A program made the position numbers and the translations under genes. From positions 62,001 through 126,000 of the forward strand of contig NZ_BCTO01000007.1 in the NCBI RefSeq assembly GCF_001571325.1: a stretch of DNA of 64,000 nucleotides, given 5' to 3'. This document shows, piece after piece, positions 35,455-46,151 of this stretch; the stretch's first letter is position 1; the number at the start of each line of letters is the position of its first letter. Under the pieces are notes generated by a model. It did no database searches. It was not told where the DNA came from and saw nothing but the letters and a program-made list of their open reading frames with translations. The stretch is from Delftia tsuruhatensis NBRC 16741. GTDB taxonomy: Bacteria > Pseudomonadota > Gammaproteobacteria > Burkholderiales > Burkholderiaceae_C.

Positions 35455-36711
35455 TTATGCGTACGCCAGGCCGGTGGCCACGCCACCGAACAGGTCGCCC
35501 TCGACCTGCGGCACGCCGGGGAAGGCCTCGCGCAGCGCATCGCGCAGCGTGCGCAGGGCCGATGAGCCGCCCGTGAGGTAGATGGCGTCCAGCGCCTGGG
35601 GCGCCACGCCGGCCAGGCGCAGGCAGTCCTGGGCGCAGGCCACGACCTGTTGCAGCGGGCCTTGCAGCTGCTCGTGCAGCACCTCGGGCGAGATGGCGGC
35701 GGACAGGCCCGATTCCAGCCAGCCCAGCTCGATGGGCGACTCGGCATGGCGCGTGGAAGCCTCGATCTTGGCCTGCTCCACGACGGCGGCCAGGCGGTGG
35801 CCTTCGCGCAGTTCCAGCACGTCCATCAGGCGCTTGTGCAGGCGCTGGTCGCTGTAGTCGGTGCGCAGGTTGCGCGCCTCGGCCAGGGCCTTGGGCGAGT
35901 ACAGCCACTGGATCAGGTGCCAGGTCGAGAGGTCGAAGAACACGCGGCTGGGCACTTCGCGGCCGCTGGGGCCGGTGTGGCGGTAGCCCAGCAGCGGCAT
36001 GATCTGGGCCAGGTTGAGCCGGTGGTCGAAGTCCGTGCCGCCGATGTGCACGCCGCTGGTGGCCAGGATGTCGTCGCGGCGGTCGCGGCGGCCGGCCTGC
36101 TCGGGCCCCAGGCGCACGACGGTGAAGTCGGAGGTACCGCCACCGATGTCCACCACCAGCACCACGGATTCCTGCGTGAGGCGCTGCTCGTAGTCCAGCG
36201 CGGCGGCGATGGGCTCCATCTGGAAATCCACTTCGCCCAGGCCGGCGGCGCGCGCGGCGTCGGCCAGGGCCTGCTGGGCCTGGCGGTCGCGCTCGGGATG
36301 GTCATCCACGAAGTGCACGGGCCGGCCCAGCACCACGCGCTCGGGCAGGCGCCCGTCCAGCGAGGCACGCGCCCGGTCGGCCACGCGGCGAAGGAACAGT
36401 CCGATCACATCCTGGTAGCTGACCAGCTGGTCGTGCACGGCCGTCTTTTCCTGCAGCAGCGCGCTGCCCAGCAGGCTCTTGAGCGAGCGCATGAGCCGGC
36501 CCGGCTCGCCATCCAGGTACTGGGCCATGGCGTCGCGCCCGAAATGCGTGCTGTGCTCATCCGTATGGAAGAACAGCGCCGTGGGCATGCCGCAGGCATC
36601 GCCTTCCAGCGGCAGCAGGCGTGCGGGCTGGCCGGGCACGCGCCAGGCCATGGCGGAGTTGGAGGTACCGAAATCTATGCCCAGCGTGGCAGGAGAGGAA
36701 GCAGTCGTCAT
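35455..36711 (-). CDS. Hsp70-like protein, YegD type
   Basis: 418 residues starting MTTASSPATLGIDFGTSNSA. It contains the Hsp70/actin phosphate loops GIDFGTSNSAMAW and VVLVVDIGGGTSDFTVVRLG, and the adenosine site region YLTGGSSAL. It lacks the C-terminal peptide-binding and lid domains of DnaK, matching the shorter E. coli YegD. It is expected to bind ATP in the cytoplasm; its client is unknown. An upstream in-frame extension to 36786 contains no conserved residues. A hairpin with T-run lies 50 bp upstream. Confidence 0.9.
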   Translation of the reverse strand: MTTASSPATLGIDFGTSNSAMAWRVPGQPARLLPLEGDACGMPTALFFHTDEHSTHFGRDAMAQYLDGEPGRLMRSLKSLLGSALLQEKTAVHDQLVSYQDVIGLFLRRVADRARASLDGRLPERVVLGRPVHFVDDHPERDRQAQQALADAARAAGLGEVDFQMEPIAAALDYEQRLTQESVVLVVDIGGGTSDFTVVRLGPEQAGRRDRRDDILATSGVHIGGTDFDHRLNLAQIMPLLGYRHTGPSGREVPSRVFFDLSTWHLIQWLYSPKALAEARNLRTDYSDQRLHKRLMDVLELREGHRLAAVVEQAKIEASTRHAESPIELGWLESGLSAAISPEVLHEQLQGPLQQVVACAQDCLRLAGVAPQALDAIYLTGGSSALRTLRDALREAFPGVPQVEGDLFGGVATGLAYA

Positions 36712-36760
36712 GGCAAGCGGCGCCGCGCCACGGCAGCCTGCGAAGGCTGCAGCGGCTGCA

Positions 36761-36784
36761 ACGAAAACGCCCACCGGAGTGGGC
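36761..36784 (-). terminator. Terminator between the VOC and Hsp70-like genes
   Basis: On the minus strand GCCCACTCCGGTGGGC forms a stem followed by GTTTTCGTT. It lies 44 bp beyond the VOC stop and 50 bp ahead of the Hsp70-like ATG. Confidence 0.75.
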
Positions 36785-36804
36785 ATGGGTGTCAGCGGGG
36801 CGCC

Positions 36805-37692: not shown

Positions 37693-38244
37693 TCAGGCCG
37701 CCAGGCGCGCGGCGGCGCTGGAGTCGGTATGGCGCACTTCGGCGCGGATGTTCTGCGGATTGCGCAGCAGGTTGAGGATGGGGCAGGTGCGCTCCACGGC
37801 CTCGAACAGCGCTTCGATCTCGGCGCGGCTGGCGGGCGAGTCGATGTGCACGGTGTAGCCGATCTCGTGCGGCCAGATGGGCGTGGCCTCGTGGCCGGGC
37901 TTGCCGCCGCGCGGATCGATGATGCCCGTGACCTCGACCTCCAGGCTCTCCACGGGCACCTGGCGCTCGGCCGCCTGGATCAGAAAGATGTGGGTGACGC
38001 AGGTGCCCAGCACGCCCAGCTGCAGCTCGGGCGAGCTGGGGCCGAGGTTGTAGCCCGCGAAGTCGGGCGGGCTGTCGCTGATGACCTGGTGCTCGCGTAT
38101 GCGCAGGCGGCGCACGCCGCTGCGGCCCTCGGCGCGCACATGGGCCTTGAGGTGGGCGGGCTGGGCCGTGCCGGCCGCGACGGCGGCGCTGCGGGCGAGC
38201 ACGGCGGCGCGCTTTTCGGCAAGGTATTCGTTGAGATGGCTCAT
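37693..38244 (-). CDS. OsmC-family protein
   Basis: 183 residues from MSHLNEYLAEKRAAVL. The two family cysteines are in GTCVTHIFLIQAAE and RTCPILNLLRNP, the arrangement used by OsmC/Ohr thiol peroxidases. Many family members of this length reduce hydroperoxides in the cytoplasm; others have unknown roles. It leads the two-gene unit with the VOC protein. It is divergent from the ABC importer cluster. Confidence 0.9.
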   Translation of the reverse strand: MSHLNEYLAEKRAAVLARSAAVAAGTAQPAHLKAHVRAEGRSGVRRLRIREHQVISDSPPDFAGYNLGPSSPELQLGVLGTCVTHIFLIQAAERQVPVESLEVEVTGIIDPRGGKPGHEATPIWPHEIGYTVHIDSPASRAEIEALFEAVERTCPILNLLRNPQNIRAEVRHTDSSAAARLAA

Positions 38245-38494: not shown

Positions 38495-40168
38495 GTGTTT
38501 TCCCAATCGAAGGCGGGTCAGGCGGCATGGAAGGCCGCGATAGCGGTATTGGCGGGCAGCAGCCTGCTGCTGGCGGCGTGCTCCAGGCAGGCCGATACGG
38601 CCCAGGCGGGCGCGGCTGCTGGCCCCGTGGAAGGCGGCACCCTGGTCTACCTGGAGCAGCAGGCCCATACCAACCTCTATCCGCCGGCCGGGGGCTTCTA
38701 TCCCAACGGCGGCGTGCTCAACCAGATCACCGACAAGCTGACCTACCAGGACCCGAAGACGCTGGAGATCCAGCCCTGGATCGCCGAGTCCTGGACCGTG
38801 AATGCCGACGCCACCGAGTACCGCTTCAAGCTGCGGCCCGGCGTCACCTTCTCCGACGGCACGCCGCTGGACGCAGCGGCCGTGGCGCGCAACTTCGACA
38901 CCTACGGCCTGGGCAACAAGGCGCTCAAGCAGCCCGTGTCCGAGGTGATCAACAACTACGAGCGCAGCGAAGTGGTCGACCCACTGACGGTGAAGTTCTT
39001 CTTCAGGAAGCCTTCGCCGGGCTTCCTGCAGGGCACCTCGGTGATCGGTTCGGGCCTGGTCTCGCCGGCCACGCTGGACCGCCCCTTCGAGGAGCTGGGC
39101 GACGCCACGCGCATCATCGGCTCCGGCCCCTTCGTGGTGGCCAGCGAGACGCTGGGCAAGGAGCTGGTGCTCAAGGTGCGCAAGGACTACGCCTGGGGTC
39201 CCGCCAAGCTGGCCCACCAGGGCCGCGCGCGGCTGGACGAGGTGAAGTTCATCGTCACGCCCGAGGACAGCGTGCGCATCGGCGCGCTGCTGGCCGGCCA
39301 GGCCGGGCTGATCCGCCAGATCCAGGCCTACGACGAAAAGCGCGTCGAGGACCAGAAGTTCAGCATCTACGCCCCGCCTACGCGCGGCGTGAACAACAGC
39401 GTGGCCATCCGCCCCGACAACGCCCTGGTGGCCGACCTCAGGGTACGCCAGGCCCTGCTGCATGGCACCAACGCCAAGGAGATCGTGGAGACGCTGTTTT
39501 CGCCGCGCTATCCGCAGGCGCGCTCGGTGATTGCCTCCACGGCGGCCGGCTTCGTGGACCTGTCGGCCAAGCTGGCCTATGACGAGGCCAAGGCGAAACA
39601 GCTGCTGGACGAGGCCGGCTGGACGCTGGGCGCCAACGGCCTGCGCCAGAAGGACGGCCGCGATTTCGTGCTCTCCACCTACGAGTCCCTGCCCCAGCCG
39701 CAGAACAAGGAGACGCTGCAGCTGGTGGCCCAGCAGTGGGCCCGCCTGGGCATCAAGCTCAACGTGCTGTCGGGCGACGCGGGCAGCCGCGCCGTGGACA
39801 CGCTGGACCCCGACAAGACCGGCGTGCTGCCCGGCATGGTGGGCCGCGCCGATCCCGACGTGATCAAGAGCAACTACTACCCGACCAACCGCAACGTGCT
39901 GCTGCAAAAAGGCGGCGTGAGCCAGAAGGTCAAGTCCTTCGAGGACACCAAGCTCAACGGCCTGTTCGACGCCATCGCGGCCGAGACCGATGCCGCCAGG
40001 CGCCTGGCGCTGGCCGGCGAAGTGCAGAACTACCTGATCGACCAGGCCTATGTGATCCCCATCTTCGAGGAACCCCAGGCCTTTGCGGGCGCAGGCTGGG
40101 TGCGTGACGTGGGCTTCGAGGCCGTGGGCCGGCCCAGCTTCTACAGCACCTGGCTGGCCAGGCGCTGA
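38495..40168 (+). CDS. ABC transporter substrate-binding lipoprotein, peptide/opine type
   Basis: 557 residues. The start is GTG at 38495 with GAGGT 8 bases upstream. The signal peptide ends in a lipobox LLLAAC (Cys29). The mature part is a type II (DppA/OppA-like) binding fold: GGVLNQITDKLTYQDP, ITPEDSVRIGALLAGQA and IFEEPQAFAGAGWVRDVGF. It is the first gene of a seven-gene unit. From memory it matches a named family (KPN_01854-type) that travels with the monooxygenase and CMD proteins below. The ligand is unknown; it is unlikely to be a plain dipeptide, given the catabolic enzymes. Confidence 0.9.
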   Translation: MFSQSKAGQAAWKAAIAVLAGSSLLLAACSRQADTAQAGAAAGPVEGGTLVYLEQQAHTNLYPPAGGFYPNGGVLNQITDKLTYQDPKTLEIQPWIAESWTVNADATEYRFKLRPGVTFSDGTPLDAAAVARNFDTYGLGNKALKQPVSEVINNYERSEVVDPLTVKFFFRKPSPGFLQGTSVIGSGLVSPATLDRPFEELGDATRIIGSGPFVVASETLGKELVLKVRKDYAWGPAKLAHQGRARLDEVKFIVTPEDSVRIGALLAGQAGLIRQIQAYDEKRVEDQKFSIYAPPTRGVNNSVAIRPDNALVADLRVRQALLHGTNAKEIVETLFSPRYPQARSVIASTAAGFVDLSAKLAYDEAKAKQLLDEAGWTLGANGLRQKDGRDFVLSTYESLPQPQNKETLQLVAQQWARLGIKLNVLSGDAGSRAVDTLDPDKTGVLPGMVGRADPDVIKSNYYPTNRNVLLQKGGVSQKVKSFEDTKLNGLFDAIAAETDAARRLALAGEVQNYLIDQAYVIPIFEEPQAFAGAGWVRDVGFEAVGRPSFYSTWLARR

Positions 40169-40196
40169 CCGGAACGCTCCCTGAGGAACCGCTCCC

Positions 40197-41144
40197 ATGC
40201 CGCGCCGCTATCTGCTCAGCCGCATCGCACAGGCCGCCCTGGTGCTGTGGGCGGCCTTCACGGTCTCGTTCATCCTGCTGCAGCTGCTGCCGGGCGACGC
40301 CGTGCTGATCAAGTTCCTGAACCCCGAGCTGGGCCTGGGCCCGCAGGAGATTGCCGACATCCGCGCCGCCTACGGCTCGGACCAGCCCGTGTGGCAGCAG
40401 TACCTGCATACACTGGGCCAGTTCCTCACAGGCCATTTCGGCTATTCGCTGCAGGCCGGCGTGCCGGTGAGCCAGGGCCTGGCCACCAGCCTGCCGCCCA
40501 CGCTCAAGCTCGCGGCCCTGGGCTTTGCCGCAGCCGCGCTGCTGGCCGTGGCGCTGGCGGCGGCCGCCAGCCTGGCGCCCTTTGCCTGGCTGCGCAACGC
40601 GCTGTATTCGCTGCCCTCGGTCTTTGTCTCGGTACCCGTGTTCTGGCTGGGGATCATGCTGATCCAGGTGGTGTCGTTCCGCCTGGGCTGGATCGCCGTG
40701 ATCAATCCCGGCCCCTGGGAAGGGCTGGTGCTGCCCACGCTGACCCTGGCCGTGCCGATCTCGGCGCCGCTGGCCCAGGTGCTGCTGCGCAATATCGACG
40801 CCGTGCTGGCCCAGCCCTTCGTGGCCGTGGCGCGGGCCAAGGGCGCCTCGCGCCGCTGGGTGCTGCTGCGCCATGTGGCACGCAATGCCCTGCTGCCCAC
40901 GCTGACCATTGCCGGCGTGCTGTTCGGCGAGCTGCTGGCCGGGGCCGTGGTGACGGAGGCCGTGTTCGGCCTCAACGGCCTGGGGACGCTGACCCAGCAG
41001 GCCGTGGGCAACCAGGACACGGCCGTGCTCCAGGCCGTGGTGGTCGTCTCGGCCGCCGCCTTCGTACTCATCAACCTCGCCGTGGACCTGCTGTACCCGC
41101 TGCTTGATCCGCGCCTGCGCCATTCCGTGGAGAACCGGCCATGA
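40197..41144 (+). CDS. ABC transporter permease 1 (DppB type)
   Basis: 315 residues with six membrane helices. The N-terminal segment RIAQAALVLWAAFTVSFILLQLLPGDAV is typical for DppB/OppB. The permease EAA loop reads FVAVARAKGASRRWVLLRHVARNALLP. It forms half of the inner-membrane channel with the next gene. It starts 29 bp after the binding-protein stop and overlaps permease 2 by 4 bp (ATGA). Confidence 0.93.
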   Translation: MPRRYLLSRIAQAALVLWAAFTVSFILLQLLPGDAVLIKFLNPELGLGPQEIADIRAAYGSDQPVWQQYLHTLGQFLTGHFGYSLQAGVPVSQGLATSLPPTLKLAALGFAAAALLAVALAAAASLAPFAWLRNALYSLPSVFVSVPVFWLGIMLIQVVSFRLGWIAVINPGPWEGLVLPTLTLAVPISAPLAQVLLRNIDAVLAQPFVAVARAKGASRRWVLLRHVARNALLPTLTIAGVLFGELLAGAVVTEAVFGLNGLGTLTQQAVGNQDTAVLQAVVVVSAAAFVLINLAVDLLYPLLDPRLRHSVENRP

Positions 41145-42097
41145 ACACTGCCGTCTCAAGCGCTCTTTCCCCGGCCCTGGATGCCCAGGCCGCGCCCGCC
41201 ACTCCTACTCCCATTCCCACGGCGCTGCCAGCGCCGTCCCTGGCCCCTGCGCCAGCCGCCCCGCGCCGCAGCTTCGCCTTGCCGGCCCGCCTGCAACCCC
41301 TGAAACGCCTGCCACCCACGCTGGCCCTGGCCTGGCTGGTGATTGCCGTGGCCGCGCTGTGGGCGCTGGCGCCCGGCTGGTTTGCCCACCAGAACCCGAT
41401 CGCGGGCCAGGCCGGCCAGCAGCTGCTGGCGCCCGGCGCCGCGCACTGGCTGGGCACGGACGCGCTGGGGCGCGACCTGTGGGCGCGCGTGGTGCATGGC
41501 GCAGTGCATTCGCTGTCGGGCGCCTTCGTGGCCGTGGGCGTGGGCCTGGCCGTGGGCACGCTGATCGGCCTGCTGGCCGGGGCCACGGGCGGGCGCACGG
41601 AAGATGCGCTGATGCGCCTGGTCGATGTGCTGCTGGCCGTGCCTTCTCTGCTGCTGTCGCTGACCATCATCATCGTGCTGGGCTTTGGCACCATCAACGC
41701 GGCCATTGCCGTGGGCGTGGTCTCGGTGGCCAGCTTCGCGCGCCTGGTTCGCTCGGAGGTGGTGCGCGTGCGCCGCTCCGACTACGTGGAGGCCGCTTTC
41801 GGCAGCGGCGGGCGCTTTGCCGCCGTGCTGTGGCGCCATGTGCTGCCCAACTCGCTGACCTCGGTCATCGCCATGGCCGCGCTGCAGTTCGGCTCGGCGA
41901 TCCTTGCGATTTCCACGCTGGGTTTTCTGGGCTACGGCGCGCCGCCGCCCACGCCCGAATGGGGGCTGCTGATCGCCGAGGGCCGCAACTACATCGCCAC
42001 CGCCTGGTGGCTGACCACGGCGCCGGGCCTGATCGTGGTGGCCGTGGTGCTGGCGGCCAACCGCATCGCCACGGCCTTCGCACGGAGGCCTGCATGA
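41141..42097 (+). CDS. ABC transporter permease 2 (DppC type)
   Basis: 318 residues. An Ala/Pro-rich cytoplasmic N-tail of about 45 residues precedes the first helix. The DppC signatures HWLGTDALGRDLWARVVHG and YVEAAFGSGGRFAAVLWRHVLPNSL (EAA loop) are clear, and six membrane segments are seen. It pairs with permease 1. Both its ends are coupled by ATGA overlaps. Confidence 0.93.
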   Translation: MNTAVSSALSPALDAQAAPATPTPIPTALPAPSLAPAPAAPRRSFALPARLQPLKRLPPTLALAWLVIAVAALWALAPGWFAHQNPIAGQAGQQLLAPGAAHWLGTDALGRDLWARVVHGAVHSLSGAFVAVGVGLAVGTLIGLLAGATGGRTEDALMRLVDVLLAVPSLLLSLTIIIVLGFGTINAAIAVGVVSVASFARLVRSEVVRVRRSDYVEAAFGSGGRFAAVLWRHVLPNSLTSVIAMAALQFGSAILAISTLGFLGYGAPPPTPEWGLLIAEGRNYIATAWWLTTAPGLIVVAVVLAANRIATAFARRPA

Positions 42098-43785
42098 GCG
42101 CCGCCATCGAGGAACGCATCCACGCCGCACCAGCGGTGGCAACCACCGCCCCCGTGCTCGAAGTGCAGGACCTGGCCGTGGCCTACCGCGATGCCGCAGG
42201 CCAGGCACAGCGCGTGGTGCACGGCGTGTCGTTTTCCGTGGCGCCGGGCGAGGTGGTGGCCCTGGTCGGCGAATCGGGCTCGGGCAAGACCACCACGGCC
42301 CAGGCCGTGATCGGCCTTTTGGCCGACAACGGCCGGCGCGAGCACGGCAGCATCCGCCTGCAGGGCACCGAGGTCTCGGGCTGGCCGGCCGCACGCTGGA
42401 ACGCCATCCGCGGCCGCGTGGTCAGCCTGGTGCCGCAAGACCCCACCATGTCGCTGAACCCCGTGCGCACGGTGGGCGACCAGGTGGGCGAGATCCTGCG
42501 CATCCACGGACTGCGCGACCGCACGGCCGTGGAGGCGCGCGTGCTGGAGCTGCTGGCCCGCGTGGGCCTGTCCCAGCCCGCGCTGCGCGCACGCCAGTAT
42601 CCGCACGAACTGTCGGGCGGCATGCGCCAGCGCGTGCTGATCGCCATCGCCATCGCGCTGCGGCCCGCCCTCATCATTGCCGACGAGCCCACCAGCGCGC
42701 TGGACGTGACCGTGCAGCGGCGCATCCTGGACCTGATCGACGCGCTGCGCCGCGAGACCGGCACGGCCGTGCTGCTGGTCACGCATGACCTGGGCGTGGC
42801 GGCCGACCGCTCGCACCGCCTGGTCGTCATGCAGGGCGGCCGCATCCAGGAGCAGGGTCCCACGCTGGAGCTGCTGCGCAATCCGCAAAGCGCCTATACG
42901 CGGCGGCTGCTGGCCGATGCGCCTTCGCTGGCGCCCGCGCCGCGCCGCACGCCCAGGCCCGCCACGGCCGATGACTGGGCCATCGAGGTCGAGGACCTGG
43001 TGCACGAGTTCGCGGCGCCCGGCCATGCCTCGGCCCACGGGCGCGGCATCTTCCGCGCCGTGGACGGCGTGTCGCTGCGCGTGCGCCGGGGCAGCACGCA
43101 TGCCATCGTGGGCGAGTCGGGCTCGGGCAAGACCACTACCATCCGCGCCATCGTGGGCCTGGGCCGGCCCACGGCGGGCCGCATCCGCATCGAAGGCACC
43201 GAGGTCACGGGCCTGCGCGGCGAGGCCCTGCGCCAGCTGCGCCGCCGCGTGCAGCTGGTCTACCAGAACCCGTTCAGTTCTCTGGACCCGCGCCAGAGCG
43301 TGTTCGACATCATCGAGGAGCCCCTGCTGAACTTCGACCCGCTGCCGGCCGATGAGCGCCGCCGGCGCGTGCACGACATGCTGGAGCGCGTGGGCCTGCC
43401 GGCCGCCGTGCTGCAGCGGCGCCCGCATGCGCTGTCGGGCGGCCAGCGCCAGCGCGTGGCGATTGCGCGCGCCCTGGTGCTGCAGCCGCAGGTGCTGGTG
43501 CTGGACGAGGCCGTATCGGCCCTGGACGTGACCGTGCAGGCGCAGATCCTCGCCCTGCTCGCCCAGCTGCAGCAGGACCTGGGGCTGACCTATCTCTTCA
43601 TCTCGCACGACCTTGCCGTGGTGCGCCAGATTGCCGACACGGTGTCGGTGCTGCGCGCGGGCCGGGTGGTGGACGCGGGCAGCGTGGAGGAAGTGTTCCA
43701 GCGCCCCACCAGCGACTACACGCGCGAACTCATGGACGCCATTCCCGGCAAAAGGAGCATTGATTTTGTCCCTCATACCGCCTGA
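42094..43785 (+). CDS. Fused double ABC ATPase (DppD-DppF type)
   Basis: 563 residues with two full nucleotide-binding domains. The first has Walker A GESGSGKTTT (59-68), signature LSGGMRQRV and IIADEPTSALDVTVQ. The second has Walker A from residue 340 and LSGGQRQRV. The two are separate proteins in E. coli Dpp/Opp but are fused here. It drives import by the two permeases. The start overlaps permease 2 by ATGA. The last 20 bp overlap the monooxygenase gene. Confidence 0.95.
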   Translation: MSAAIEERIHAAPAVATTAPVLEVQDLAVAYRDAAGQAQRVVHGVSFSVAPGEVVALVGESGSGKTTTAQAVIGLLADNGRREHGSIRLQGTEVSGWPAARWNAIRGRVVSLVPQDPTMSLNPVRTVGDQVGEILRIHGLRDRTAVEARVLELLARVGLSQPALRARQYPHELSGGMRQRVLIAIAIALRPALIIADEPTSALDVTVQRRILDLIDALRRETGTAVLLVTHDLGVAADRSHRLVVMQGGRIQEQGPTLELLRNPQSAYTRRLLADAPSLAPAPRRTPRPATADDWAIEVEDLVHEFAAPGHASAHGRGIFRAVDGVSLRVRRGSTHAIVGESGSGKTTTIRAIVGLGRPTAGRIRIEGTEVTGLRGEALRQLRRRVQLVYQNPFSSLDPRQSVFDIIEEPLLNFDPLPADERRRRVHDMLERVGLPAAVLQRRPHALSGGQRQRVAIARALVLQPQVLVLDEAVSALDVTVQAQILALLAQLQQDLGLTYLFISHDLAVVRQIADTVSVLRAGRVVDAGSVEEVFQRPTSDYTRELMDAIPGKRSIDFVPHTA

Positions 43786-44878
43786 CACACACGCTGGCGC
43801 CACCCCCCGCAGCGGCCCGCGCCTGGGCTTCTTCAGCCGCCTGCTCGACGATGTGCCGGCCGGCGAACGCTACCGTCTGGTGGCCGAGCAGATCGCCCAT
43901 GCCGAGGCCCAGGGCTTCGACTCGGCCTGGGTGGCCCAGCACCATTTCCATGAAAGCGAGGGCGGCCTGCCCTCGCCCTTCGTCTTTCTCGCCCATGTGG
44001 CGGCGCGCACGCGGCGCATCCGCATCGGAACGGGCGTGATCACGCTGCCGCTGGAAAACGCGCTGCGCGTGGCCGAGGACGCGGCCGTGCTGGACCTGCT
44101 GACCGGCGGCCGCCTGGAGGTGGGCCTGGGCACGGGCGGCACGGCCGAATCCTTCGAGGCCTTTGGCGTGCAGGGCGCCGAGCGCGGCGCCGTCTTCGCA
44201 CGCAACTTCGGCGTGCTGCAGGACGCCTGGGCCGGGCGCGCGCTGGCCGGTGGCGTCCACCTGTACCCGGCCGCGCCGCAGCTGCTGGAGCGCATCTGGC
44301 AGGCCACGTTCTCGGCCGAGGGCGGCGCGCGGGCCGGGGCCAACGGCGACGGCCTGATGCTGTCGCGCACCCAGCCACGGCCCGAAGGCGCGCCGCAGGC
44401 CACGCTGTCCGAGATCCAGAACCCCATCATCGACGCCTACCTCGCCCGCCTGCCCGCAGGGCGGGCGCCGCGCATCCTGGGCTCGCGCACGCTGTTCGTT
44501 GCCGACCGCCGAGACGAGGCGCTGCGCTGGGCCGAGGCCGGCCTGCGCCGCGTGGCCCGGCGCCATGCCGCCCAGCCCTCGCAGTGGGCGGCCCGCGTCG
44601 ATCCGCAGGCGCCGCTGGCCGATCTCATCGCCGCCTACGACGTGCATGTGGGCACGCCCGACGAGGTCATCGCCTCGCTGCGCGCCGACACGGCGCTGGC
44701 GCGCGTGAGCGACATCGTCTTCCAGGTGCATTCCATCGACCCGCCGCACGACGCCATCCTGCGCTCCATCGAGCTGACGGCCGCCCATGTGGCACCAGCC
44801 CTGGGCTGGCGCCGTGCAGATCTGCAGGCACCCTCTTCCCTCCCCGCAGCCCGGGCCGGACTGCTGCAAGCCGCATGA
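43766..44878 (+). CDS. Luciferase-like FMN-dependent monooxygenase
   Basis: 370 residues. The TIM-barrel bacterial-luciferase signatures are FSRLLDDVPAGERYRLVAEQ, AEAQGFDSAWVAQHHFHESEG, RTRRIRIGTGVITLPLENALR and GRLEVGLGTGGT. Such enzymes oxidise a substrate with O2 and reduced flavin from a partner reductase. I chose TTG at 43766 because AAAGGAG lies 8 bases upstream and the conserved core begins soon after. It overlaps the ATPase gene by 20 bp. No flavin reductase is encoded nearby. From memory it belongs to the KPN_01858-type family, of unknown substrate. Confidence 0.9.
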   Translation: MSLIPPDTHAGATPRSGPRLGFFSRLLDDVPAGERYRLVAEQIAHAEAQGFDSAWVAQHHFHESEGGLPSPFVFLAHVAARTRRIRIGTGVITLPLENALRVAEDAAVLDLLTGGRLEVGLGTGGTAESFEAFGVQGAERGAVFARNFGVLQDAWAGRALAGGVHLYPAAPQLLERIWQATFSAEGGARAGANGDGLMLSRTQPRPEGAPQATLSEIQNPIIDAYLARLPAGRAPRILGSRTLFVADRRDEALRWAEAGLRRVARRHAAQPSQWAARVDPQAPLADLIAAYDVHVGTPDEVIASLRADTALARVSDIVFQVHSIDPPHDAILRSIELTAAHVAPALGWRRADLQAPSSLPAARAGLLQAA

Positions 44879-45567
44879 CCATGAACACCACCGTACAGCC
44901 CCGTTTTCCGGACGACGTCATCGACCACCTCGCCGGCATCACCCCCGGCAGCGCCCTGGACCGCGTGCGCCGCCACCGCACCGAGGCGCGCACGCAGGCC
45001 CAGCAGAGTTTTGCCGCCCTGTTCACGCCCGCCGAGCCCGTGCCCGGCACGGTCTCGCTGCGCGAGCGGCTGGCCCTGGCCGCCTTCACGGCCGGGCTTC
45101 ATGGCGAGCCGCGCAGCGCCGCCTTCTATGCGAAGGCGCTGGCGGCCGAAGATGCGGAACTGGCTGCCGCCGTGGCATCCGAAGTCGTGCGGGGCCGTGC
45201 ACAAAGCCTTCAGCCCGGCAGCGGCCCGCACGGGCCGTACGGCCGCTACCCGGCAGGCCCGCTGAGCCGCGAAGACCAGAGCGGCCCCGCCTATGCCGTG
45301 GACCCGGCCCATGCCGCGCTGCTGGGCGCGCGCCTGGCCGCGGCGCTGGCCCATGCCCACCTGCTGGCCTACCACCCGCGCGACGCCAGCGCCGGGGCCC
45401 TGCAGGCGCTGCAACAGGCGGGCTGGAGCGAGACGGACATCGTCATCGTGTCCCAGCTGGCGTCCTTCCTGTCCTTCCAGATCCGCGTGGTGGCGGGGTT
45501 GCGCGTGCTGGCTGCACGCCCCGCGTCCCCGGCAGCCCATCAACCCACCCTGCAAGCCCAGCCATGA
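44875..45567 (+). CDS. CMD-domain protein 1 (Avi_7170-type)
   Basis: 230 residues, starting MTMNTTVQPRFPDDVIDHLAG at an ATG that overlaps the monooxygenase stop (ATGA). Helix-rich; it contains the carboxymuconolactone-decarboxylase/AhpD-like pattern (LRERLALAAFTAGLHGEPRS, LLAYHPRDASAGALQALQQAGWS, IVIVSQLASFLSFQIRVVAGL). The paired cysteines of AhpD are absent, so it is unlikely to be a peroxidase by itself. It may form a hetero-complex with the next protein. The substrate is unknown. Confidence 0.85.
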   Translation: MTMNTTVQPRFPDDVIDHLAGITPGSALDRVRRHRTEARTQAQQSFAALFTPAEPVPGTVSLRERLALAAFTAGLHGEPRSAAFYAKALAAEDAELAAAVASEVVRGRAQSLQPGSGPHGPYGRYPAGPLSREDQSGPAYAVDPAHAALLGARLAAALAHAHLLAYHPRDASAGALQALQQAGWSETDIVIVSQLASFLSFQIRVVAGLRVLAARPASPAAHQPTLQAQP

Positions 45568-46151
45568 CCTCAACGAACTCCGCCGCTCCCCAGGTCTTCA
45601 CCCAGGAACAGCTCGACTGGCTGCCATGGATTGAGCCGCTGGACGAAAGCGAGCTGACCGAACGCCACCATGCAGGCCTGGTCGATGCCTCACGCGCGCA
45701 GTCCCCCTACTTCCGCCTGCTGGCGCGCGACCCCGACACGCTGGGCGCACGCACGCGCACCGACAAGGACATCTTCTACAACCCCGACGCCGGCCTGCCG
45801 CGTGCCGAGCGGGAGCTGGCGGCCGCTGCCACTTCGCGCGCCAATGGCTGCATCTACTGCGCCTCGGTCCATGCGCGCTTTGCCACGCACTTCTCGCGCC
45901 GGGGCGGCGACGTGCAGCGCCTGCTCGCCGAGGGTCCGGGCACGGACCTGGGACCGCGCTGGAACGCCATCGTCACGGCGGCCGTGGCGCTGACCCAGAC
46001 GCCGCCTGCGCTGGAGCCCGCCCACATCGATGCGCTGCGCGCCGCCGGCCTGGACGATGCCGCCATCTCCGATGTGCTGCACGGCACGGCCTTCTTCAAC
46101 TGGGCCAACCGGCTCATGCTGTCGCTGGGCGAGCCACGGACCACCGCATGA
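45564..46151 (+). CDS. Alkylhydroperoxidase-domain protein 2 (Avi_7169-type)
   Basis: 195 residues starting MTSTNSAAPQVFTQEQLDW. It contains the AhpD-type active site ANGCIYCASVHARFATHFSRR, with the two cysteines and the proton-relay histidine. The C-terminal helix pair (AAGLDDAAISDVLHGTAFFNWANRL) is typical of the CMD fold. It could reduce a peroxide or peroxyflavin product of the monooxygenase; that is inference. It is the last gene of the unit, coupled by ATGA, and converges on the DASS transporter. Confidence 0.9.
   Translation: MTSTNSAAPQVFTQEQLDWLPWIEPLDESELTERHHAGLVDASRAQSPYFRLLARDPDTLGARTRTDKDIFYNPDAGLPRAERELAAAATSRANGCIYCASVHARFATHFSRRGGDVQRLLAEGPGTDLGPRWNAIVTAAVALTQTPPALEPAHIDALRAAGLDDAAISDVLHGTAFFNWANRLMLSLGEPRTTA

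Follow-up and report, generated by a model that had tools for sequence, protein, structure and literature searches.

The NCBI protein family library holds a gene cluster, represented by the Allorhizobium ampelinum S4 locus, that is built from the families TIGR04027, TIGR04028, TIGR04029 and TIGR04030, all four typed as hypothetical equivalogs. A 64,000-nucleotide stretch of Delftia tsuruhatensis NBRC 16741 (contig NZ_BCTO01000007.1, positions 62,001 to 126,000; below, the window) shares all four families and their order, as a solute-binding lipoprotein (SBP, TIGR04028), a luciferase-like monooxygenase (LLM, TIGR04027) and two proteins called here CMD1 (TIGR04029) and CMD2 (TIGR04030), and the locus belongs, in a Delftia-like form, to this widespread, known but little characterised cluster. 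It has divergent OsmC and VOC genes and lacks a 2-oxoglutarate (2OG) oxygenase gene like that found downstream in the A. ampelinum locus. The host genome (6.6 Mb in 135 contigs) is near Delftia acidovorans, with an LLM 94-95% identical in two related loci (L034 and L035).

Other described systems share part of this gene set. In Corynebacterium glutamicum, cg2678-cg2674 comprise an SBP, a permease, a duplicated ATPase and a CMD protein as in the window, going by the annotation in the published excerpts consulted, but that organism has no TIGR04027 LLM over the cut-off. Escherichia coli YciW resembles the window in a weak two-domain match, CMD1 then CMD2, and differs in having no LLM or TIGR04028-named importer alongside. 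PCX02514 of Klebsiella sp. PCX (PDB 8K74) belongs by sequence to the same LLM family as the window protein, and its activity, in the available part of its description, is on poly(acrylic acid) (PAA) and without flavin. Desulfonating LLMs of the SsuD/MsuD/NtaA type would, if the unit does serve sulfur uptake, be alike in pairing an importer with a flavin monooxygenase; they differ in LLM family and importer class, and the window unit has paired AhpD-type proteins and no recognised flavin reductase.

We favour, at about even confidence, the reading that the window unit scavenges sulfur, taking it from a small organosulfur molecule. It is the best reading when the reports on the regulator McbR, YciW and its CysB motif, sulfur-related neighbours and control tests are taken together, and the sulfur link comes for the most part from published regulon data for C. 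glutamicum.

A tightly packed seven-gene unit

The unit is a row of seven genes on the + strand (38495-46151) with tight same-strand spacing:

38495..40168, + strand: SBP, TIGR04028; 868 bits against a cut-off of 468.5; GTG start, lipobox LAAC
40197..41144, + strand: ATP-binding cassette (ABC) permease 1, DppB/NikB type; PF00528 and PF19300; Opp2B 249.9 bits, below the cut-off of 350
41141..42097, + strand: ABC permease 2, DppC/NikC type; PF00528; Opp2C 231.5 bits, below the cut-off of 300
42094..43785, + strand: ABC ATPase with two fused ATPase domains; PF00005 in two stretches
43766..44878, + strand: LLM, TIGR04027; 554.7 bits against a cut-off of 412.9; TTG start
44875..45567, + strand: CMD1, cysteine-free AhpD-fold protein, TIGR04029; 188 bits against a cut-off of 100.75
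45564..46151, + strand: CMD2, AhpD-type protein with CxxC...H, TIGR04030; 281 bits against a cut-off of 233.15; PF02627

All seven genes lie where the original prediction, made from the letters alone, had placed them, and the junctions it described are present: a 4-bp ATGA overlap at four of them, and a 20-bp overlap between the ATPase gene and the LLM gene with its TTG start at 43766, for which an AGGAG ends 8 bases upstream. The spacing between the lipoprotein and permease 1 genes, given there as 29 bp, is 28 bp. CMD1 may alternatively start at a second ATG at 44881. The four families it named (KPN_01854/KPN_01858 and Avi_7169/7170 types) are confirmed, all exceeding the NCBI cut-offs; because of these scores, and because the same order recurs in related loci, the unit is more than a chance arrangement. 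As had also been predicted, no flavin reductase or regulator was recognised in the unit, nor among the listed neighbours, just four of which were family-searched. The importer is of Opp/Dpp/Nik composition, with an SBP_bac_5 protein, two BPD_transp_1 permeases and a fused two-domain ABC ATPase.

The enzyme triad is the core and the importer is exchangeable

Genome contigs were scanned with the LLM as query, and at least 533 relatives were confirmed. The best 80 loci were kept, a set gathered through the LLM and biased towards its close relatives. In all 80 the order is LLM, CMD1, CMD2 on a single strand, with CMD frames broken in L090 and L098. Of these loci, 65 have the full seven-gene order, in a few cases with broken frames; the remaining 15, all from Variovorax, have no importer directly upstream of the triad (L061 has only 3 kb of upstream sequence). 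When 50 of the LLM genomes were searched (the 15 Variovorax and 35 others), the LLM was found in 50/50 and the SBP family in 35/50, with none in the 15 Variovorax genomes; in four of these (L054, L064, L087 and L098) the triad is preceded, on its own strand, by Liv-type importer, OsmC and VOC genes. As the triad is kept in 80/80 loci while the importer is missing in the 15 Variovorax, the enzyme triad is the core of the cluster and the importer is exchangeable.

In a class-wide search the LLM passed the cut-off in one of 185 genomes, the host's own; among 150 genomes of its family the LLM did so in 4, the SBP in 5, CMD2 in 4 and CMD1 in 9, rising at looser limits to 11 for CMD2 (1e-50) and 14 for CMD1 (1e-20). 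Of 394 genomes from the class to which L106 (the actinomycete Klugiella) belongs, 12 have the SBP, accompanied by CMD1 and CMD2 in all 12 and by the LLM in 11, and the seven-gene order holds in 11 of the 12 SBP-bearing loci (L106 and L158-L168).

The original prediction had read tight coupling as a single function and proposed asking whether the four families always occur together. They do not. The importer lacks the LLM in L167, a 2.3-Mb actinomycete with a fused CMD1-CMD2, and in the own-family genome G200, where the SBP is present with no LLM at 1e-100, no CMD2 at 1e-50 and no CMD1 at 1e-20; the LLM lacks the importer in the 15 Variovorax genomes; and C. glutamicum scores above the cut-offs of TIGR04028, 04029 and 04030 but not of the TIGR04027 LLM. 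On these cases an inseparable seven-gene unit was rejected, and what stands of the earlier claim is an importer-plus-oxidation unit of the four named families.

Several loci depart from the common layout in other ways. Two Comamonas loci (L039:3119-6300 and L078:2898-6300) have two tandem SBP copies ahead of a single importer. An own-family genome (L148:7461-12778) has a complete importer without LLM or CMD genes in an apparently flagellar gene region, a label taken from reading protein starts rather than from a family search. On a Paracoccus denitrificans plasmid (L119:9425-10884) matches to just one permease and to part of the ATPase precede the triad. L090 and L127 are a single record, Rhizobium sp. 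RCAM05350, in which the permease, ATPase and CMD frames are broken and those of SBP and LLM are open, reflecting either decay or poor sequence.

Evidence for a possible role in sulfur scavenging

In the scheme that we favour, the lipoprotein and ABC importer would, by homology, bring an organosulfur compound in, and the LLM, as suggested by its class, would use reduced flavin mononucleotide (FMNH2) from a reductase encoded elsewhere to oxygenate the compound, breaking or priming a C-S bond. CMD1 and CMD2 would form one hetero-oligomeric AhpD-type enzyme, with CMD2 supplying the CxxC site, that may reduce or cleave the oxidised product, and the neighbouring OsmC and glyoxalase-like proteins may handle by-products. 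Among the substrates first suggested (an opine, a thio- or sulfono-compound, or a peptide-like metabolite), a thio- or sulfono-compound is the best guess; an opine or peptide-like compound falls under an alternative discussed below.

The C. glutamicum operon genes cg2678-74 are described, in the accessible part of one report, as a peptide-type ABC transporter with a duplicated ATPase and a CMD protein, listed under McbR (PMC2807442), and the available text of a cysR study names them among McbR-regulon genes that are less transcribed in its mutant (PMC2580772). A further list, in an excerpt that leaves out the column heading, marks cg2678 with R beside the ssu genes (PMC6892785). In E. coli YciW a match to TIGR04029 (36.2 bits) is followed by one to TIGR04030 (30.8 bits), each below its cut-off, and the protein matches a fused Erwinia CMD protein at 29.8 bits; a CysB motif is reported upstream of yciW in the consulted section of a review (PMC10821248). 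In the E. coli stretch L134:8981-17111, fabI and ycjD separate yciW from the peptide-type ABC genes sapABCDF, ~1.7 kb away.

Sulfur-named neighbours (CysB, tauA, a sulfonate SBP, cysteine desulfurase and methionine ABC genes) occur in six of 20 hand-picked plasmid stretches (L114, L115, L121, L123, L124 and L132), and in Variovorax L054 an SfnB/DszC-like gene, below both cut-offs, lies 3' of CMD2. We compared neighbourhoods with controls in 49 loci, the 50 searched LLM loci minus L061 (contig too short), using per locus a single 20-kb control stretch from another part of its contig, mostly 50 kb away and nearer on short contigs. With pooled profiles for seven markers, sulfur markers were found at 13/49 loci against 5/49 controls (p=0.033, one-sided and uncorrected, with some weak hits); with nine single-sequence markers, one of which was derived from the test locus L054, the counts were 9/49 against 5/49 (p=0.19), or 8/49 against 3/49 without CysB (p=0.1). 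Neither EpsC-type nor SufS-type markers showed enrichment in the two 49-locus tests. Support from these controls is weak, and sulfur neighbours as proof were rejected, significance being reached only after widening.

A number of observations weigh against a sulfur role. The pooled-profile run was a widened re-test from which CysB and the L054 marker had been dropped, and since the 49 loci are related and not independent, the p-values of all these neighbourhood controls are too favourable. In 14 of the 20 plasmid stretches, of which L118 is unannotated, no neighbour has an explicit sulfur name. In the partly available report PMC2807442 the McbR entries for cg2678-74 are starred, meaning predicted, and the genes rise at pH 6; the equation of the C. 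glutamicum family hits with cg2678-74 is our inference rather than a reading of that genome, which in addition has no LLM over the cut-off. The first cysteine of CxxC is replaced in the YciW alignment. The same C. glutamicum genes are also reported, in the portion of the paper at hand, under the heme-responsive HrrA (PMC9491836), and Klebsiella KPN_01858 appears in one sentence with TauC among iron-responsive proteins of an iron-limitation proteome, so that an iron or heme link is possible. No second convincing site of the upstream element described below was found in the own genome, and the only assayed LLM relative found acts, as far as its published account was available, on PAA.

Of the 14 stretches without sulfur-named neighbours, three are Pantoea stretches in which additional genes for an LLM, an amidohydrolase and a GNAT protein resemble those of S-succinocysteine breakdown; the remaining 11 have neither kind of neighbour. 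In the open-access literature searched, no title or abstract start states a sulfur role for the cluster, and a search by family name found one paper, the proteome just mentioned with KPN_01858.

The LLM and a reported poly(acrylic acid) monooxygenase

The LLM is best considered beside its solved relative PCX02514 (8K74), which scores 405.6 bits to the window protein. The original prediction had described the families as having no assigned substrate, a statement that is outdated for the LLM, as 8K74 is published as a PAA monooxygenase; the available part of that paper reports NADPH-dependent shortening of PAA chains together with a binding measurement (PMC11354265). If the activity carried over, the unit would break down PAA or similar long anionic chains, which we regard as very improbable. 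The protein was chosen, according to the same text, on the premise that luciferases use long-chain substrates, and its kcat is 0.00214 per second with NADPH only and no activity with FMNH2, which is odd for the enzyme class (PMC11354265). A long polymer would be unlikely to use an importer of this kind. Of the five docked residues, those matching window positions 140, 200 and 201 are invariant (32/32) and that at window 25 is Arg in 29/32 with three gaps, whereas the position matching docked His253 is His in just 7/32; the conserved ones may simply hold the flavin phosphate. In our view a small anionic substrate, oxygenated with FMNH2, would be more likely for this LLM than PAA.

Identity of the importer

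The binding protein falls far short of the models for named importers, at 152.2 bits against a cut-off of 393 for NikA, 100.7 against 594 for GsiB and 72.5 against 1005 for DppA, and on this basis a nickel, glutathione or dipeptide importer was rejected. The fused ATPase passes the cut-offs for NikD (427.2 against 318.7 bits), NikE (412.8 against 332.55) and CntD/F, scores that are inflated because its two domains sum. The binding-site motif GRAD is present in 28/28 aligned SBP sequences; we dropped it as an argument against dipeptides, as one dipeptide-binding chain also has Arg there.

These results bear on the possibility that the unit takes up and breaks down a sulfur-free compound (opine, peptide-like, amino-acid, or heme- or metal-linked), with the importer feeding an LLM that oxidises it as a nutrient or to free a metal and the CMD pair processing the product. 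The nearest solved binding proteins include nickel-type proteins, heme-binding HbpA, DppA, YliB, AgaA and agrocinopine proteins, the Paracoccus triad of L119 adjoins sarcosine-oxidase genes and the Terrarubrum locus L125 hydantoinase genes, and the ATPase scores, inflated as they are, and the partly consulted HrrA and iron-limitation reports point the same way. Set against this are the SBP scores and the C. glutamicum counterpart, reported in the accessible sources in a sulfur regulon. We consider the sulfur-free alternative doubtful, if the most plausible of the rivals.

CMD1 as a probable cysteine-free partner of CMD2

Both cysteines of the catalytic CxxC motif of AhpD-type proteins are present in 31/31 aligned CMD2 sequences, whereas 38/39 aligned CMD1 sequences have no cysteine at all. 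A Pfam search of CMD1 matched no domain. Its AlphaFold 2 model (pLDDT 90) matches the AhpD-type peroxidase-related folds 2oyo (E 7.9e-4) and 6k40 (E 2e-3), with TM about 0.5-0.6. CMD1 and CMD2 are fused in one open reading frame in 18 of the 122 loci examined, namely eight enterobacterial plasmid stretches, Ewingella, two Comamonas, L167 and six loci of the second type described below, and these fusions support physical pairing of the two proteins. CMD1 is thus probably a cysteine-free AhpD-fold partner of CMD2 in a putative complex.

OsmC and VOC companions and an upstream element

Two genes missing from the gene list of the original prediction diverge from the unit, and a conserved element lies 5' of the SBP gene:

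37693..38244, - strand: OsmC-family protein, divergent from the unit; PF02566, 53.7 bits
36828..37667, - strand: VOC protein with a Glyoxalase_3 domain, divergent from the unit; PF13468, 136.6 bits
38363..38398, + strand: putative conserved cis-element 5' of the SBP gene; alignment of 15 sequences

OsmC is found in 22/80 loci, the window type of VOC in 22/80 and another VOC type in 6/80; more than half of the 80 have neither OsmC nor VOC. In the control comparison OsmC occurred at 14/49 test loci against 0/49 controls, and VOC likewise at 14/49 against 0/49 (one-sided p=2.1e-5 each, a value again made too favourable by the relatedness of the loci). One locus, L168, holds SBP, two permeases, ATPase, LLM, CMD1, CMD2, VOC (Glyoxalase_3) and OsmC in a single row, so both proteins belong to the wider gene set. 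The divergent OsmC and Glyoxalase_3 neighbours are recurrent accessories of the unit.

OsmC and AhpD-type proteins are peroxide-reducing families, and the OsmC enrichment and the invariant CxxC of CMD2 would fit a defence against organic hydroperoxides or reactive sulfur, with CMD1-CMD2 and OsmC as its effectors, to which the LLM and importer would deliver a toxic thiol or peroxide compound or which they would help by converting it. We think this unlikely: a binding-protein importer would be unusual for defence, 58/80 loci have no OsmC match within the stretch, and the LLM is kept in 80/80, though the loci were found by it.

Fourteen relatives share the conserved 36-base element with the window. 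The matrix built from these 15 sequences also matches directly 5' of the LLM in two importer-less Variovorax loci, L114 (29.2) and L087 (16.6), while shuffled sequence (962 kb) gave no score above 14; two more matches, in L217 and L052, are unexplained. A pattern search of the own genome returned six matches against four for the reversed pattern, none of the others tied to a sulfur promoter. With no further promoter found there, the element was rejected as a regulon marker.

Elsewhere in the window, a transporter gene of the Na_sulph_symp family (PF00939; 46164-47669) is convergent with the unit and ends 12 bp past CMD2; its sequence cluster has members in 6/81 loci, the window included, the others being L034-L038. 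The same loci share an Hsp70-like gene (PF00012; window 35455-36786) beyond the VOC gene.

A second locus type and apparently exchangeable modules

A second type of locus is represented by nine stretches from own-family or same-genus genomes (L149-L157), picked for their CMD-family hits, with a shorter CMD1 and a CMD2 and without a TIGR04027 gene. An FAD (flavin adenine dinucleotide) monooxygenase-like gene is present in 8/9 (three family-searched, the rest by likeness to that of L149). Four stretches have tripartite-type binding proteins, four a Dpp-type importer together with a BAAT-family gene, and one a Liv-type importer. At L114 the LLM triad adjoins an FAD gene of the second-type kind, and this combination, together with the second-type loci, makes the modules seem to mix. 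A Variovorax sp. PBL-E5 plasmid (L121:5276-12770) carries CMD1 and a broken CMD2 with no LLM, beside genes for a family 2A encapsulin with cysteine desulfurase cargo, EpsC and rhodanese.

We suggest, tentatively, that a hetero-oligomeric CMD1-CMD2 enzyme of AhpD type may be the fixed heart of modular sulfur-scavenging units with exchangeable monooxygenases and importers, and that YciW may be its stand-alone descendant. On the same tentative footing, the monooxygenase would be of LLM or FAD type and the importers of at least four kinds (two peptide-type ABC, Liv-type ABC and tripartite-type binding proteins). An open-access search did not find in print the split between core and importer, the OsmC/VOC companions, the cysteine-free partner or the tie to YciW.

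If the sulfur-scavenging proposal is true, annotation in Klebsiella, Pantoea, rhizobia, Delftia and relatives, and actinomycetes would shift to sulfur nutrition, in place of peptide uptake or polymer decay labels, and there would be a testable role for AhpD-type pairs with one cysteine-free partner and for YciW. Should the modular arrangement also be true, the CysB-linked orphan YciW would gain a reaction to test.

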